From: a virus
Strand: one strand, 5' to 3'
IMG/VR virus record: IMGVR_UViG_3300043570_001741
Span: 62,001 to 126,000 of that record
Length of the DNA stretch: 64,000 nucleotides
Shown here in pieces: positions 24,647 to 28,274 of this stretch. The notes under the pieces are model-generated. The model had not been told where the DNA came from and searched no databases. It saw only the letters and a list, made by a program, of their open reading frames with translations. Both the position numbers and the translations under genes were made by a program. The number at the start of each line of letters is the position of its first letter. The stretch's first letter is position 1.

Positions 24647-24721
24647 CGCAGGTAGGTCAAGTTGACCCGAATGGTCTCATAAGCCATATCGAGAGTGGAG
24701 CGTTACCACTACCTGCAACCA
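24647..24721 (+). ncRNA. Initiator tRNA(fMet)-like element, noncanonical
   Basis: 75 bases fold as a cloverleaf. Acceptor bases 2-7 pair, but C1 faces A72, the hallmark of bacterial initiator tRNA. The 3' end is A73 plus encoded CCA. The anticodon loop CTCATAA has CAT, with a 5-bp stem. The T-stem AGTGG/CCACT has an odd loop AGCGTTA instead of a TTC-type loop. The D-arm GGTC/GACC has only a 5-base loop lacking GG. Either a diverged tRNA(fMet), a pseudogene or a mimic. It directly precedes the gene at 24742. Confidence 0.55.
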
Positions 24722-24741: not shown

Positions 24742-25191
24742 ATGTTACATTTAATAGAATCACTAACTGATAAATTTTTTGACTTGTTGAATCAAGATCC
24801 GGTACGCCCGAATATTCCACATGTGGACCGAATTGGTCCTAATAAAGATATTTTTGTTTTCCGTGATGCTGATGATAAAGTTAAAGCTATTACATGTGTG
24901 AGTTATCAACATTCAATTCCAACAAAGGAATCTGAATTATTTGAAAATACAGACACTCCTAACGTAGCCGTATTTTACACAATCTGGTCATATGTGCCAG
25001 GTGCTGGTCGTACATTGATTTTTGATGCGGTTCGCCACATTAAAGAGACAAGGCCGGAAATTACAAGATTTGTGACTTTAAGTCCAAAGACTGAAATGGC
25101 TAAACGTTTTCATACAAAGAATGGTGCAGGTGTTTATCGTGAAAACATCGAAACTGTTAATTATGAGTATGAAAAAGTGGAAAATACTTGA
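24742..25191 (+). CDS. GNAT-like conserved phage protein
   Basis: 149 residues. The pattern VAVFYTIWSYVPGAGRTLI, then ITRFVTLSPKTEMAKRFHTKNGA, follows a GNAT-fold acetyltransferase with a GAGRxLI pyrophosphate loop. It is common in T4-like phages, with unknown substrate. The leader is occupied by the tRNA-like element; TATTAT is just 3 bases ahead of the ATG and no ribosome site is seen. Confidence 0.7.
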   Translation: MLHLIESLTDKFFDLLNQDPVRPNIPHVDRIGPNKDIFVFRDADDKVKAITCVSYQHSIPTKESELFENTDTPNVAVFYTIWSYVPGAGRTLIFDAVRHIKETRPEITRFVTLSPKTEMAKRFHTKNGAGVYRENIETVNYEYEKVENT

Positions 25192-25221
25192 CCTTTTTAC
25201 TTGTAATACTAAAGTTTACGC

Positions 25222-25250
25222 TTGACAAATACTAAATAATAGACTATAAT
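25222..25250 (+). promoter_or_regulatory. Consensus promoter of the tRNA leader
   Basis: TTGACA (25222-25227), 17 bases, TATAAT (25245-25250): a perfect sigma70 consensus, the best in the window. The expected start is near 25257, which is exactly the ATG of the leader ORF. There is no GTTG-N8-CAAC palindrome. Confidence 0.85.
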
Positions 25251-25256
25251 ACACAA

Positions 25257-25385
25257 ATGATGCAAAATTTAAGACTCTCACCGATAACGCTAAGTGCTAT
25301 GTCACCGACATGGCAGGCCAACTATCGTTGTGAGAATCATGGCTTTATTGGAACATCAAAGGATCCAGCAGAGGTTTGTGTTTAG
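25257..25385 (+). CDS. Leaderless 42-codon leader ORF using all 20 amino acids
   Basis: ATGATG at 25257 lies about 6 bases after the -10 box, and TAG is at 25383-25385. The peptide contains every one of the 20 amino acids at least once. Its last codons (25371-25380) are perfectly complementary to the 5' arm of the following terminator. This suits a leader peptide for attenuation. A small zinc-binding protein (CENHGF...VCV) is the alternative; both could be true. Confidence 0.6.
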   Translation: MMQNLRLSPITLSAMSPTWQANYRCENHGFIGTSKDPAEVCV

Positions 25386-25447
25386 AATAAATTAGTAAAA
25401 TAGTTTTTTAATCACAAACCTCAGACCTAAAAAATCTGAGGTTTTTT
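25371..25447 (+). promoter_or_regulatory. Attenuator: antiterminator overlapping a terminator
   Basis: Segment 1, GAGGTTTGTG (25371-25380), is inside the leader ORF. Segment 2 is CACAAACCTCAGA (25413-25425), and segment 3 is TCTGAGGTT (25435-25443) followed by T-rich sequence. Segments 1:2 pair over 10 bp and exclude the 9-bp 2:3 terminator stem. A ribosome finishing at TAG 25383 would cover segment 1 and favour termination; a stalled or absent ribosome would leave the antiterminator. Confidence 0.6.
25417..25447 (+). terminator. Rho-independent terminator before the tRNA array
   Basis: AACCTCAGA (25417-25425) pairs with TCTGAGGTT (25435-25443) around a 9-base A-rich loop, followed by TTTTG. 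It stands between the leader ORF and the first tRNA and so would block the array unless suppressed. Confidence 0.8.
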
Positions 25448-25469
25448 GTTTTGGGCATCGTCCCTTTTA

Positions 25470-25495
25470 GTTCTTTAAAAATTTGTAGAGTTAAT
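25470..25495 (+). repeat. boxA-like tRNA leader repeat (copy 1)
   Basis: GTTCTTTAAAAATTTG resembles the boxA region of bacterial rRNA leaders, followed by TAGAGTTAAT. A near copy precedes the second tRNA block at 25951, and an exact inverted copy of 25477-25495 is at 28100-28118. Host rRNA-type antitermination of the array is a possibility. Confidence 0.5.
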
Positions 25496-25499
25496 ATAT

Positions 25500-25573
25500 T
25501 CCCGAATGGTGTAGTGGTAGCACAGCAGACTTTGACTCTGTTAGTATAAGTTCGATTCTTATTTCGGGTGCCA
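25500..25573 (+). tRNA. tRNA-Gln (TTG)
   Basis: Cloverleaf with anticodon loop CTTTGAC (TTG), T-loop TTCGATT and encoded CCA. The first pair is T1-T72, i.e. open, in line with the weak 1-72 pair of bacterial tRNA-Gln. First tRNA of the array. Confidence 0.9.
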
Positions 25574-25606
25574 TATAAAAACATATTGTGAAGTGTGTTT
25601 CTATAT

Positions 25607-25694
25607 GGAAGTGTGGTCGAGTGGTCTATGGCTCTAGTCTTGAAAACTAGCGATTCGAAAGGATCCGTGAGTTCGAATCTCACCGCTTCCGCCA
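25607..25694 (+). tRNA. tRNA-Ser (TGA)
   Basis: 88 bases with acceptor GGAAGTG/CGCTTCC, anticodon loop CTTGAAA (TGA), a long variable arm typical of Ser, T-loop TTCGAAT and encoded CCA. Confidence 0.93.
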
Positions 25695-25698
25695 AATT

Positions 25699-25787
25699 GG
25701 AGAGTGGGCAGGATGGTAATGCAGCAGATTGCTAATCTGTCATCGGATTAAACCGGTGAGTGGGTTCGATTCCCACACTCTCCGCCA
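25699..25787 (+). tRNA. tRNA-Ser (GCT)
   Basis: 89 bases with acceptor GGAGAGT/ACTCTCC, anticodon loop TTGCTAA (GCT), long variable arm, T-loop TTCGATT and encoded CCA. Only 4 bases separate it from the previous tRNA. Confidence 0.92.
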
Positions 25788-25788
25788 T

Positions 25789-25864
25789 GTAGGTGTGACC
25801 TGAAAGGCTAGGGAGCGGATTGCAAATCCGTATAATGCAGGTTCGAGTCCTGTCACCTACTCCA
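25789..25864 (+). tRNA. tRNA-Cys (GCA)
   Basis: Acceptor GTAGGTG/CACCTAC, anticodon loop TTGCAAA (GCA), discriminator T as in bacterial tRNA-Cys, encoded CCA. Last tRNA of the first block; a new promoter follows. Confidence 0.92.
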
Positions 25865-25882
25865 TTTGAAAACAAAAGTATT

Positions 25883-25942
25883 GTTGTATAAAAACAACGA
25901 TGCTAAAATAGTTGTTGACTAAATGTGTGGTTCATGTATAAT
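25883..25942 (+). promoter_or_regulatory. Internal tRNA-array promoter with palindrome
   Basis: GTTG-N8-CAAC at 25883-25898, 16 bases, TTGACT (25915-25920), 16 bases, TATAAT (25937-25942). It lies between tRNA-Cys and tRNA-Glu and would let the main part of the array escape the attenuator at 25417. Confidence 0.75.
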
Positions 25943-25950
25943 ACACACAT

Positions 25951-25976
25951 GTTATTTAAAAAGTTGTAGAGTTAAT
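25951..25976 (+). repeat. boxA-like tRNA leader repeat (copy 2)
   Basis: GTTATTTAAAAAGTTGTAGAGTTAAT differs from copy 1 at 25470 by few bases and again sits just before a tRNA block, here tRNA-Glu at 25981. This placement argues for a leader role rather than chance. Confidence 0.5.
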
Positions 25977-25980
25977 TTTT

Positions 25981-26055
25981 GCTCCGTTCGTCTATCGGTT
26001 AGGACGCTGCCCTTTCAAGGCGGAAAGACCAGTTCGATTCTGGTACGGAGTACCA
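25981..26055 (+). tRNA. tRNA-Glu (TTC)
   Basis: Acceptor GCTCCGT/ACGGAGT, anticodon loop CTTTCAA (TTC), T-loop TTCGATT, encoded CCA. The CCA end overlaps the 5' arm of the long hairpin at 26052. Confidence 0.93.
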
Positions 26056-26176
26056 TTTGTTTTGCTGACGTAAGCGCCTGAGTAAACGTCAACTCTAACT
26101 AACTATGTACATAAACGGTAATGCTGCAGCTAATTCCGTTGAGCATAGCAAATAGTGCGTCAGCAAAACAAATGGT
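26052..26176 (+). ncRNA. Candidate structured RNA closed by a 19-bp stem
   Basis: 26052-26070 pairs perfectly with 26158-26176 (19 bp; core CATTTGTTTTGCTGACG). The 87-base interior has nested stems: CTATG/CATAG and AACGG/CCGTT around a GCTGCAGC apex. It lies between tRNA-Glu and tRNA-Lys, begins at the tRNA-Glu CCA end, and has no coding frame worth calling. It may be an RNase III processing site or an independent small RNA. Confidence 0.55.
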
Positions 26177-26181
26177 TGTTT

Positions 26182-26256
26182 GGAGGCATAACTTAACGGC
26201 TAAAGTAACTGGCTTTTAACCAGTAAATCAGAGTTCGATTCTCTGTGCCTCTACCA
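26182..26256 (+). tRNA. tRNA-Lys (TTT)
   Basis: Acceptor GGAGGCA/TGCCTCT, anticodon loop CTTTTAA (TTT) on stem ACTGG/CCAGT, T-loop TTCGATT, encoded CCA. Confidence 0.93.
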
Positions 26257-26265
26257 GTAGAATTT

Positions 26266-26350
26266 GGAGATGCCGCCGTAATGGTATGGCAGGAGACTGT
26301 AAATCTTCCGACTTAGGTCACAATAGGTTCGATCCCTATCATCTCCACCA
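26266..26350 (+). tRNA. tRNA-Tyr (GTA)
   Basis: 85 bases with acceptor GGAGATG/CATCTCC, anticodon loop CTGTAAA (GTA), long variable arm as in bacterial tRNA-Tyr, T-loop TTCGATC, encoded CCA. Confidence 0.93.
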
Positions 26351-26354
26351 AATT

Positions 26355-26429
26355 GGTTTCAAAGTGTTCACGGACGCACGCTAGCTTGTCACGCTAGAAG
26401 AAGGGGATCGTTACCCCTTGAGACCGCCA
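26355..26429 (+). tRNA. tRNA-Asp (GTC), unusual T-loop
   Basis: Acceptor GGTTTCA/TGAGACC, anticodon loop TTGTCAC (GTC), discriminator G and encoded CCA. The T-stem is AGGGG/CCCCT, but the T-loop is ATCGTTA rather than the TTCRANY form of the other tRNAs. It is close to the AGCGTTA loop of the initiator-like element at 24647. Confidence 0.85.
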
Positions 26430-26438
26430 AGTTTTTAT

Positions 26439-26513
26439 TCCACAGTAGCACAGCGGTAGTGCAGTTGACTGTTAATCAATTGGTCGTAGGTTCGATCCCT
26501 GCCTGTGGAGCCA
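26439..26513 (+). tRNA. tRNA-Asn (GTT)
   Basis: Acceptor TCCACAG/CTGTGGA, anticodon loop CTGTTAA (GTT), T-loop TTCGATC, discriminator G, encoded CCA. Confidence 0.93.
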
Positions 26514-26518
26514 ATATC

Positions 26519-26595
26519 GGGGACGTGATGGAATTGGTATACGTGTTGGTCTTAGAAGCCAAATTTTGTGAGTTCGAGTCTCACCGTCCCCACCA
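26519..26595 (+). tRNA. tRNA-Leu (TAG) with short variable region
   Basis: Acceptor GGGGACG/CGTCCCC, anticodon loop CTTAGAA (TAG), T-arm GTGAG/CTCAC. Only 5 bases (ATTTT) separate anticodon and T stems, whereas bacterial tRNA-Leu normally has a long variable arm. Encoded CCA. Confidence 0.88.
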
Positions 26596-26599
26596 ATTT

Positions 26600-26673
26600 G
26601 CCCTTTTAGTATAATGGTATTACGCCTGTTTTGTAATCAGGTTACGGCAGTTCGATTCTGTCAAGGGGCACCA
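26600..26673 (+). tRNA. tRNA-Thr (TGT)
   Basis: Acceptor GCCCTTT/AAGGGGC, anticodon loop TTTGTAA (TGT) with a T-T mismatch closing the stem, T-loop TTCGATT, encoded CCA. Confidence 0.91.
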
Positions 26674-26678
26674 ATTTT

Positions 26679-26752
26679 CTCGGTATAGTTTAATGGTAGA
26701 ATTCGTGGTTTGGGACCATGTGATGGAAGTTCGATTCTTCCTACCGAGACCA
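26679..26752 (+). tRNA. tRNA-Pro (TGG)
   Basis: Acceptor CTCGGTA/TACCGAG, anticodon loop TTTGGGA (TGG) on stem CGTGG/CCATG, T-loop TTCGATT, encoded CCA. Confidence 0.92.
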
Positions 26753-26757
26753 GTTAT

Positions 26758-26831
26758 GGGGAATTAGTATAATGGGATTACGGCAGCTTTGCAAGTTGTT
26801 TATGGGAGTTCGATTCTCCCATTCTCCACCA
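26758..26831 (+). tRNA. tRNA-Ala (TGC)
   Basis: Acceptor GGGGAAT/ATTCTCC, anticodon loop TTTGCAA (TGC), T-arm GGGAG/CTCCC, encoded CCA. The G3-T70 wobble is the expected alanine identity pair. Confidence 0.93.
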
Positions 26832-26835
26832 TTCA

Positions 26836-26910
26836 GGTTCAGTAGCACAGCGGTAGTGCAATTGCTTCATACGCAATAGGTCGTTGGCTCGAATCCAACC
26901 TGAACCACCA
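26836..26910 (+). tRNA. tRNA-Met or tRNA-Ile2 (CAT)
   Basis: Acceptor GGTTCAG/CTGAACC, anticodon loop TTCATAC (CAT), T-loop CTCGAAT, encoded CCA. CAT may be read as elongator Met, or as Ile after lysidine modification; a second CAT tRNA is at 28199. Confidence 0.9.
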
Positions 26911-26916
26911 AGTTAC

Positions 26917-26991
26917 GGGCGATTAGTAAAATGAATATTACACAAGGCTACGAACCTTGAAGTGGGAGTTTGATTCTCTCATCGCCCTCCA
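26917..26991 (+). tRNA. tRNA-Arg (ACG)
   Basis: Acceptor GGGCGAT/ATCGCCC, anticodon loop CTACGAA (ACG) on stem CAAGG/CCTTG, T-loop TTTGATT, encoded CCA. Confidence 0.91.
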
Positions 26992-27195
26992 GAACCAGCT
27001 AAGGTAACGCTTGGCTACTGTGACACGCAGGAAGTGAAGTGAGTTCGTTACTCAAGTGTGGTACTACTCTTACCGAAGTAGCGTTGGCAATACGAGAATT
27101 CTTTTTGGTCGGGAAGCGGGTGGAAGGTACATGGGAGAGGTATGATAGCGTCATATCTTTTCGTACTATAATTACCGCCGCAGAAAGAAAGCAAT
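26992..27195 (+). other. Gene-free structured gap inside the tRNA array
   Basis: About 204 bases without a credible gene or tRNA. Visible hairpins are AGCTAAG/CTTGGCT near 26997-27016, TGAGT/ACTCA near 27040-27054, and a nested structure at 27116-27181 (GCGG/CCGC outside, GGTAC/GTACT, then GGTATGA-TAGCG-TCATATC). It may hold one or more small RNAs or decayed tRNA genes. Confidence 0.4.
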
Positions 27196-27270
27196 GCCGT
27201 TGTAGCTCAGAGGAAGAGCATTCGCTTGATAAGCGAAAGGCCGACATTTCGAAATTGTCCAACGGTACCA
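27196..27270 (+). tRNA. tRNA-Ile (GAT)
   Basis: Acceptor GCCGTTG/CAACGGT, anticodon loop TTGATAA (GAT) on stem TTCGC/GCGAA, T-loop TTCGAAA with one mismatch in the T-stem, encoded CCA. Confidence 0.91.
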
Positions 27271-27275
27271 ATTTT

Positions 27276-27349
27276 ATCTCGCTGGTGTAATGGCAGCACG
27301 ATGGTCTCCAAAACCATTAGTCGGGGTTCGAGTCCCTGGCGGAATGCCA
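27276..27349 (+). tRNA. tRNA-Trp (CCA)
   Basis: Anticodon loop CTCCAAA (CCA) on stem ATGGT/ACCAT, T-loop TTCGAGT, discriminator G, encoded CCA. The acceptor ATCTCGC/GCGGAAT has one C-A mismatch. Confidence 0.9.
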
Positions 27350-27368
27350 AGTTTTAAAGGTTGTCAAT

Positions 27369-27857
27369 ATGAAAAAATTCGATATAGAAGAAGTCAAACA
27401 GTTCCTTGCAAAACAAGGACCAAACACCAAAGTATATCTTGGTGCTGATTCAGAAAGAATCAGAGTGAATGAAGTTTGGTATGCTGACTACGCTTTAGCT
27501 GTTGTAGTTCATATTGATGGTTGTCATGGTTGTAAGATTTTTGGTTTTGTTGACCGTGAATTAGATTACGACCATAAAAAAAGTAAACCTGCTATGCGTC
27601 TAATGACAGAGGTGTACAAGGTTTCAGAATTGTTCCAATCACTACAGGATGTGTTGGAAGATTATCATGTTGAAGTCCATTTGGACTTAAATAAATCAGA
27701 TGAGTTCGGTAGTTCTTGTGTTGTTCAGCAAGCAATTGGTTATATCAAAGGTACATGTAACATGACACCAATGGTTAAACCTGATGCACCTGCGGCTTCA
27801 TTCTGTGCAGACCGTTTAAAACGGATTCTAGCAGAACAAGAATTGTCAACTATATAA
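27369..27857 (+). CDS. DUF458/YkuK-type RNase H-like protein
   Basis: 162 residues inside the tRNA array. YLGADSERIR near residue 23 and a second acidic strand VHLDLNKSDEF match the RNase H-like fold of the DUF458 (YkuK) family; KPDAPAASFCADR closes it. A nuclease acting on RNA is plausible. Its place between tRNA-Trp and tRNA-Gly suggests, but does not prove, a tRNA-related job. Confidence 0.75.
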   Translation: MKKFDIEEVKQFLAKQGPNTKVYLGADSERIRVNEVWYADYALAVVVHIDGCHGCKIFGFVDRELDYDHKKSKPAMRLMTEVYKVSELFQSLQDVLEDYHVEVHLDLNKSDEFGSSCVVQQAIGYIKGTCNMTPMVKPDAPAASFCADRLKRILAEQELSTI

Positions 27858-27863
27858 AAATAT

Positions 27864-27937
27864 GCGGGATTAGTTTAGGGGCAAAACAGCAGATTTCCAA
27901 TCTTCGGTCATCGGTTCGATTCCGATATCCCGCTCCA
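27864..27937 (+). tRNA. tRNA-Gly (TCC)
   Basis: Acceptor GCGGGAT/ATCCCGC, anticodon loop TTTCCAA (TCC), T-loop TTCGATT, discriminator T as in bacterial tRNA-Gly, encoded CCA. Confidence 0.92.
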
Positions 27938-27943
27938 GTCAAT

Positions 27944-28019
27944 GCAGTTGTTAGTGTAAAGGTTAACACCACGGATTGTGATTCCGTTAATATGGGTTCG
28001 ATTCCCATACTTCTGCCCA
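27944..28019 (+). tRNA. tRNA-His (GTG)
   Basis: Anticodon loop TTGTGAT (GTG) on stem ACGGA/TCCGT, T-loop TTCGATT. The extra G at -1 faces discriminator C, the tRNA-His identity pair. Two T-T mismatches lie in the acceptor stem. Encoded CCA. Confidence 0.9.
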
Positions 28020-28023
28020 ATTC

Positions 28024-28098
28024 ACATCGTTAGCTCAGCGGTAGAGCAGGGCCCTTACAAGGCCAAGGTCAAAAGTTCAATCCTTTTACGATGTACCA
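28024..28098 (+). tRNA. tRNA-Val (TAC)
   Basis: Acceptor ACATCGT/ACGATGT, anticodon loop CTTACAA (TAC), T-loop TTCAATC, encoded CCA. Confidence 0.92.
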
Positions 28099-28099
28099 A

Positions 28100-28118
28100 A
28101 TTAACTCTACAAATTTTT
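28100..28118 (-). repeat. Inverted copy of the boxA-like leader repeat
   Basis: ATTAACTCTACAAATTTTT is the exact reverse complement of 25477-25495, 2.6 kb upstream. The two lie at the head of the array and between tRNA-Val and tRNA-Arg(TCT). They could pair in a long transcript or mark an old inversion or insertion. Confidence 0.6.
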
Positions 28119-28193
28119 CTGGCCTTAGTATAATGGATAATACAGTTGCCTTCTAAGCAATCAATACAGGTTCGATTCCTGTAGGCCGGGCCA
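28119..28193 (+). tRNA. tRNA-Arg (TCT)
   Basis: Acceptor CTGGCCT/AGGCCGG, anticodon loop CTTCTAA (TCT) on stem GTTGC/GCAAT, T-loop TTCGATT, discriminator G, encoded CCA. Confidence 0.92.
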
Positions 28194-28198
28194 ATTAC

Positions 28199-28274
28199 AC
28201 GCTTGTAGCTCAATGGTTAGAGCAGGAAACTCATAATTTCTTGGTTGGGGGTTCGAGTCCCTTCGAGCGTACCA
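28199..28274 (+). tRNA. tRNA-Met (CAT)
   Basis: Acceptor ACGCTTG/CGAGCGT, anticodon loop CTCATAA (CAT) on stem GGAAA/TTTCT, T-loop TTCGAGT, encoded CCA. The A1-T72 pair is intact, so this is an elongator-type or Ile2-type tRNA. Last tRNA of the array. Confidence 0.91.

Follow-up and report, generated by a model that had tools for sequence, protein, structure and literature searches.

A candidate ribosome-controlled attenuator ahead of a phage tRNA operon, with a leader ORF that samples nearly all tRNA classes

What would a short open reading frame (ORF) do between a consensus promoter and a terminator, directly ahead of a phage tRNA array? The question is raised by a locus in the window analysed here, a stretch of 64,000 nucleotides from a 157,713-base virus record. 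T4-type baseplate genes are found among ten proteins scanned, and the phage is therefore probably a T4-like myovirus. Two papers argue that phage tRNAs replace tRNAs lost to host nucleases (PMC10264068, PMC11555353); their passages on this point describe no control of the tRNA array, and the strings "attenuat-" and "leader" (for PMC10264068, "leader peptide") are absent from the main texts. From the evidence set out below, the element in the window can be read, at a probability of about 0.85, as a ribosome-controlled transcription attenuator for the phage tRNA operon.

The leader locus and the tRNA array of the window

The leader promoter, ORF, pairing arms, terminator, boxA-like motif, tRNA array and internal promoter described here all lie on the plus strand. 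The promoter scan of the window places a sigma-70 promoter at 25222-25250, with TTGACA at 25222-25227, a 17 nt spacer and TATAAT at 25245-25250, matching 12 of 12 consensus positions. It is followed by an ORF of 42 codons (25257-25385; ATG at 25257, TAG at 25383-25385) that is probably leaderless and in which a recount of the listed ORF found all 20 amino acids and no runs of a regulatory codon. On its own, the occurrence of 20 amino-acid types in 42 codons has P = 0.009, which is weak singly and strong across families. Near its stop codon the ORF carries GAGGTTTGTG (25371-25380), of which 25413-25422 is the exact reverse complement, and this second arm overlaps the 5' arm of an intrinsic terminator at 25416-25447 (stem 25416-25425/25435-25444, T run 25442-25447). 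A 10-nt exact complement was obtained in 0.2% of 5000 codon shuffles of the window ORF (P = 0.002). The terminator has a loop of 9 and is omitted by a terminator scan with a loop limit of 8.

Folding presents the two structures as alternatives. The antiterminator hairpin (25371-25422) is predicted at -18.6 kcal/mol, stronger than the terminator (25413-25447) at -12.2 kcal/mol, and the leader RNA from 25257 to 25455 has z = -4.4, with none of 200 shuffles equally stable. With L004 as a stand-in for the window, to which it is identical over 25200-25500, the terminator probability is 1.00 when the end of the ORF is masked, 0.00 when the arm is free and 0.05 in the naked (untranslated) RNA. The structural claims of the first-pass annotation were borne out by these results, namely a perfect TTGACA-17-TATAAT promoter, a 42-codon ORF with 20 amino acids, base-for-base complementarity of its end to a segment overlapping the terminator, mutual exclusion of antiterminator and terminator, and a terminator followed by 22 tRNAs.

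The array (25500-28274) holds 22 tRNA genes by tRNA scan, 21 of them also detected by Rfam, all on the strand of the leader and beginning with tRNA-Gln at 25500. A 23rd tRNA of the window (Met, 24647-24721) lies upstream of the leader. At the gathering score, the Rfam scan of the window returned tRNAs only and no T-box match. An RNase H-like gene (PF04308; 27369-27857) sits within the array, and relatives of it are found within the arrays of Xanthomonas phage X1 and of DLP_6. A boxA-like motif, TTCTTTAAAA, which we take to resemble the E. coli rrn boxA, stands before the first tRNA at 25471-25480. This motif and its variants, mostly 25-35 nt before the first tRNA, are carried by 40 of 51 leader arrays, against a mean of 0.1 and a maximum of 2 in 200 shuffles, which suggests rRNA-type Nus antitermination of phage tRNA operons.

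The array also has an internal promoter before tRNA-Glu, TTGACT-16-TATAAT at 25915-25942, with 11 of 12 consensus positions. From there, 18 of the 22 tRNAs would be transcribed without passing the attenuator, and the leader promoter would be needed just for tRNA-Gln, two tRNA-Ser and tRNA-Cys. A second promoter-like site between terminator and first tRNA is likewise found for 35 of 51 leaders in relatives (e.g. L010, L015, L051), against 4.2 on average and at most 10 in 200 shuffles. Because of these internal and downstream promoters the array is not fully gated, and the attenuator probably raises tRNA supply above a base level rather than acting as an on/off lock. In L015, L038, L080 and L083 a T-tailed hairpin upstream of the first tRNA has TTGACA in its loop region, and terminator and next promoter may overlap there. 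A six-codon ORF (MLFKKL, 25949-25969) lies 6 nt behind the internal promoter at 25915 and overlaps a boxA-like stretch; further mini-ORFs were seen in L020 and L117.

Leaders and their predicted switches in related phages

Relatives were gathered through neighbour genes of the window, and the sample is accordingly not random. Two queries, one at 24742-25191 (unknown family, with a weak Pfam match below cut-off) and one with the RNase H-like gene, gave 159 loci, and two further queries gave 101 more. A repeat search with the gene of L183 returned mostly known loci, and its new loci stand outside all counts. The idea of the leader peptides as one protein family was dropped, since a tblastn search with the window peptide gave 6 phage records, all with E of 6 or more. 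A DNA search of phages with the leader region matched in its tRNA-Gln part in the 20 records listed of 289. Scanning for a promoter followed by an ATG revealed short ORFs with 19-20 amino-acid types before tRNA arrays, many of them without evident likeness to the window leader. A leader caller blind to composition was applied to 262 phage sequences, requiring a terminator before a tRNA in an array of at least five, a complementary upstream arm and an ORF ending there; it made 110 calls in 95 loci, comprising 62 distinct peptides.

All 20 amino acids occur in 33 of the 62 distinct peptides, the shortest having 32 codons; this count precedes the removal of false calls, and two of the 33 (L018 and L040; 57 and 58 codons) had starts that were later shortened. 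By chance, as estimated from windows of 754 long ORFs in the same loci, 20 types are reached in 0.055% of cases at 32 aa, 0.42% at 38 aa and 0.9% at 42 aa. Compared with coding windows, the number of amino-acid types has a median P < 0.013 in 8 of 24 peptide clusters, false calls included. There is no 40% identity between the clusters, yet near-complete composition is kept. Between families the peptides diverge beyond recognition; composition, terminator and antiterminator persist.

Eleven of the 62 peptides (9-55 aa, 8-18 types) were removed by eye as false calls, i.e. upstream-gene terminators, wrong frames and fragments, which leaves a leader set of 51; the folding set of 53 adds the leaders of KVP40 and of the second operon of G002 (G002-2). 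For L018, L040 and L192 the start position was reset by hand. Among the distinct arrays with upstream sequence and no fewer than 10 tRNAs, 68 in all, 54 are preceded by a called leader, and earlier lists give one for 7 of the remaining 14; loci starting inside an array were not scored as leaderless. In the comparison of leader content with operon content, which has its own set of 54 leader-operon pairs, one leader enters twice, as L018 and as L019 with another start. Consensus promoters are found upstream in many relatives, mostly 6-7 nt from the ATG, and no consensus promoter is found in others. Some leaders have a GTG or TTG start behind a purine-rich stretch and are not leaderless, which fits selection for translation. 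ORFs of 60-69 aa behind strong promoters, with 0-7 nt between their end and tRNA-Met, were rejected as leaders because no terminator fits there.

Such leaders are also present in named phages. That of X1 has 39 codons and 19 types, and the KVP40-type leader matches 50 Vibrio phage records, of which the eight that were read have 18-19 types in 37-38 codons. Culturable phages with such a leader include nt-1 of Vibrio natriegens. No leader was callable, as judged by eye, in the scanned stretches around the arrays of T4, T5, Felix O1, Aeh1, Aeromonas 65, Acinetobacter 133, AM24, M5.1, Quaran19, DLP_6, XacN1 and Va1. Three ORFs from these stretches were not called, having no convincing terminator and arm: an 18-type ORF of 44 aa inside the Aeh1 array, an ORF of 44 aa outside the M5.1 array, and a 19-type ORF on the strand opposite the DLP_6 array. 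A search of viral contigs for a relative of an X1 gene gave no result. Among the tRNAs themselves, those with anticodon CUA (amber suppressor type) occur inside the arrays of L022 and XacN1 (L277), and tRNA-Ile with anticodon UAU, unusual in bacteria, occurs in many phage arrays (L016, L041, L062 and others).

The pairing of arm and terminator was compared across families with a swap set of 17 leaders, chosen by promoter and terminator only and with arms ignored. The end of a leader lowers the probability of its own terminator by a mean of 0.40, against 0.032 for terminators of other families and 0.004 for shuffled ones (permutation P < 5e-5), yet the drop exceeds 0.5 in only 7 of the 17. Thus both properties that the first-pass annotation had expected of related phages, complementary arms and preserved amino-acid content, are found, the former with this restriction. 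In equilibrium folding, no more than 23 of 53 leaders show a drop in terminator probability above 0.5 once the arm is free, and for those below 0.5 the effect would need kinetic (co-transcriptional) folding. Masking the ORF through its stop codon gives the terminator in 53 of 53, a result that is nearly built in, as the competing arm is removed. The KVP40 antiterminator, drawn by eye, is weak, with the terminator staying at 0.96 when the arm is free. A protector pairing that restores termination without translation is absent in the window and predicted in nine relatives (seven of one family, L109-2 and L112), whose naked RNA terminates while the freed arm prevents it; a stall, not mere absence of the ribosome, would therefore open the operon in these nine.

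Not every codon of a leader could report a shortage. If 12 nt of ribosome cover are assumed, a stall leaves the arm free at 33 codons of the window leader, which hold 17 amino-acid types, and Lys, Asp and Val occur in the last codons only. The proposal of the first-pass annotation that a shortage of any charged tRNA could be sensed is thus slightly too broad and would hold for about 17 types. Among 18 representatives there are 23-33 senseable codons with 16-19 types, Val being absent from this part in 11 and Asp in 7. The senseable part still exceeds expectation, with 313 types against 257 +/- 7.

Leader content and tRNA cargo

The representatives in the coverage, swap, codon-family and senseable-codon tests were hand-picked, L170 and L133 belong to one cluster, and kinship among the phages is handled by representatives alone. 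The leaders of 19 such representatives together sample 319 tRNA classes of the operons that they precede, against 249 +/- 7 expected and a maximum of 272 in 5000 draws. Shuffling the operons among the leaders gives a permutation P < 5e-5, or 4.5e-4 without L170 and L133. Both codon families of Leu, Ser and Arg are sampled in 79 of 84 cases in 14 representatives, where 69.8 +/- 2.6 are expected.

Where the tRNA set is small, the leader is reduced too. In one leader family, which precedes operons of 10-11 tRNA classes, the leaders have 21-22 codons and are nearly confined to those classes: 20 of 21 codons fall within them in L133, 18 of 20 in L127, 18 of 20 in L170 and 17 of 21 in L156, against expected fractions of 0.51-0.62, all within a single sequence family. 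The operon of L133, on a contig that ends inside the tRNA array, has tRNA-Leu UAA and UAG, and its leader has TTA, TTG and CTA. Among split arrays, L239-L241 have two operons with one leader each, and the second leader of L241 is without Tyr and Glu, whose tRNAs lie in the first operon, though it keeps one Asp, and draws 39 of 42 codons from the classes of its own operon (expected fraction 0.74, P = 0.002). The second leader of the related L143/L239 has one Tyr, one Glu and 37 of 42 codons in its own classes (P = 0.014). First leaders in split arrays match weakly, with P = 0.14 for L241, 0.03 for L239 and 0.04 for L109. In near-complete operons codons with a missing tRNA are not avoided, Ser TCN being used 2-5 times without a detected tRNA-Ser(UGA), and the L044 leader lacks Cys and Val though both tRNAs are present. 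Where the tRNA set is reduced or split, leader content follows the tRNAs of the operon that the leader precedes.

A prediction was fixed beforehand for the reduced-leader phages G002 and G003, in which a second tRNA cluster is present: this cluster should have a leader of complementary classes. The prediction held for G002, whose second operon has its own leader behind a perfect promoter. The 38 codons of this leader favour Ser, Lys, Ile and Gln, include Trp, Cys, Phe and His, and encode no Asp or Glu; 27 of 37 codons lie in the classes of its operon against an expected 0.49 (P = 0.003). It failed for G003, where no leader was found for the second operon. Of eleven further regions from eight virus records, four (G005, G006, G007, G009) have a leader, and for the remaining seven none was found. 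The six further leaders, i.e. these four with G002-2 and KVP40, together cover 85 classes against 65.1 +/- 4.0 (maximum 78 in 5000), a set assembled after the hypothesis and with the ORF picked among listed candidates. Single coverage P values are 0.0008 for G006, 0.013 for KVP40 (a leader noticed partly for its composition), 0.02 for G007, 0.057 for G002-2, 0.07 for G009 and 0.15 for G005, for which a 31-aa ORF was used although the algorithm ranked a 10-aa ORF with a better promoter first. The tRNA operons without a findable leader are those of G003, L303, L306, L308, L310, L311, L312 and L313, and sometimes the other operon of the same phage has one.

Proposed control, alternatives and known systems

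The following scheme is proposed. The promoter would start a short RNA that opens with an ORF in which nearly all tRNA classes are sampled, and the end of this ORF can pair with the 5' arm of a terminator placed before the tRNAs. An undelayed ribosome would cover the arm at the stop codon, the terminator would form and transcription would end near 25447. If a sampled aminoacyl-tRNA were scarce, the ribosome would stall upstream, the arm would pair, no terminator would form and the tRNA genes would be transcribed. The leader would thus sense shortage through many inputs, namely the tRNAs supplied by the operon, giving negative feedback. Untranslated RNA of the window would also read through; in some relatives, upstream pairing would restore termination without translation, as in the trp leader. 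The trigger is likely to be loss of host tRNAs in infection, including their cleavage by defence nucleases, and this is the least certain step. A wider statement is given about even odds: that the leader of each leader-headed operon samples the isoacceptor classes supplied by it, that loss of any of these, e.g. to a host anticodon nuclease, turns on the operon supplying the replacement, and that the leader is rewritten whenever the cargo changes.

Other explanations can be offered for the same locus. The ORF might encode a small phage protein that has its own function; the terminator would then end its mRNA and the composition would be a by-product. The ORFs are short and often have strong promoters, and in the record of Vibrio phage F86 the KVP40-type leader is entered as a hypothetical protein. 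Neither a 3' end matched to its particular terminator nor content that shifts with the operon would be required of such a protein, and the retention of near-complete composition among families without 40% identity, together with the excess sampling of both codon families of Leu, Ser and Arg, also makes this quite improbable. It is hardly credible that an ordinary intergenic terminator and a spurious ORF have met by chance: the window alone offers no more than the two P values given above for composition and arm match, but leaders recur in most of the large arrays sampled and all pooled tests stand against coincidence. A leader could instead sense general translation activity, i.e. whether a ribosome is present, and not the charging of particular tRNAs, with the broad composition merely making the ORF average. 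The read-through predicted for the untranslated window RNA agrees with this, as does the indifference of near-complete operons to unsupplied codons, but random coding windows do not reach the observed coverage, leaders of reduced or split operons are biased to their own tRNAs, and nine leaders are predicted to terminate when untranslated but not with the arm freed. Sensing of this general kind is therefore regarded as unlikely, and control by tRNA charging through a ribosome-controlled attenuator is preferred.

Ribosome-mediated attenuators of amino-acid operons are known from trpL, hisL and leuL, and runs of a regulatory codon are a typical, not a defining, trait of them. The phage leaders resemble these in having a promoter-proximal short ORF, an intrinsic terminator, an exclusive antiterminator and a switch set by ribosome position; for some relatives a protector-like pairing, as in trpL, is predicted. 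A short ORF directly behind a promoter, and an intrinsic terminator between it and the controlled genes, are found in the window and relatives; an exclusive antiterminator and terminator with the arm under the finishing ribosome is predicted by folding for the window leader and is weaker in about half of the relatives. The codons are related to the operon product overall, a relation that is not specific in near-complete operons, including that of the window. The phage leaders differ in being phage-encoded and often leaderless, in controlling tRNAs and not biosynthetic enzymes, and in sampling nearly all tRNA classes, whereas amino-acid-operon leaders use runs of one codon. Multivalent attenuators such as ilvGMEDA (Ile, Val, Leu) and thrABC (Thr, Ile) likewise sense several amino acids with one leader ORF, but these number two or three, in contrast to the 9-20 types of phage leaders, whose content follows the tRNA genes. 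T-box riboswitches also sense tRNA charging and switch a terminator, but there the RNA binds one tRNA directly and has no ORF. The first-pass annotation knew of no phage tRNA attenuator of this type, and no description was found in searches of open-licence PMC papers.

If the proposed control is true, no attenuator known to us would be broader than this leader, with its reading of nearly every codon. It could serve as a general reporter of tRNA shortage, and it would tell which tRNAs a phage expects to run short of. Its recurrence in many related viruses would make the leader a general sensor of tRNA shortage.
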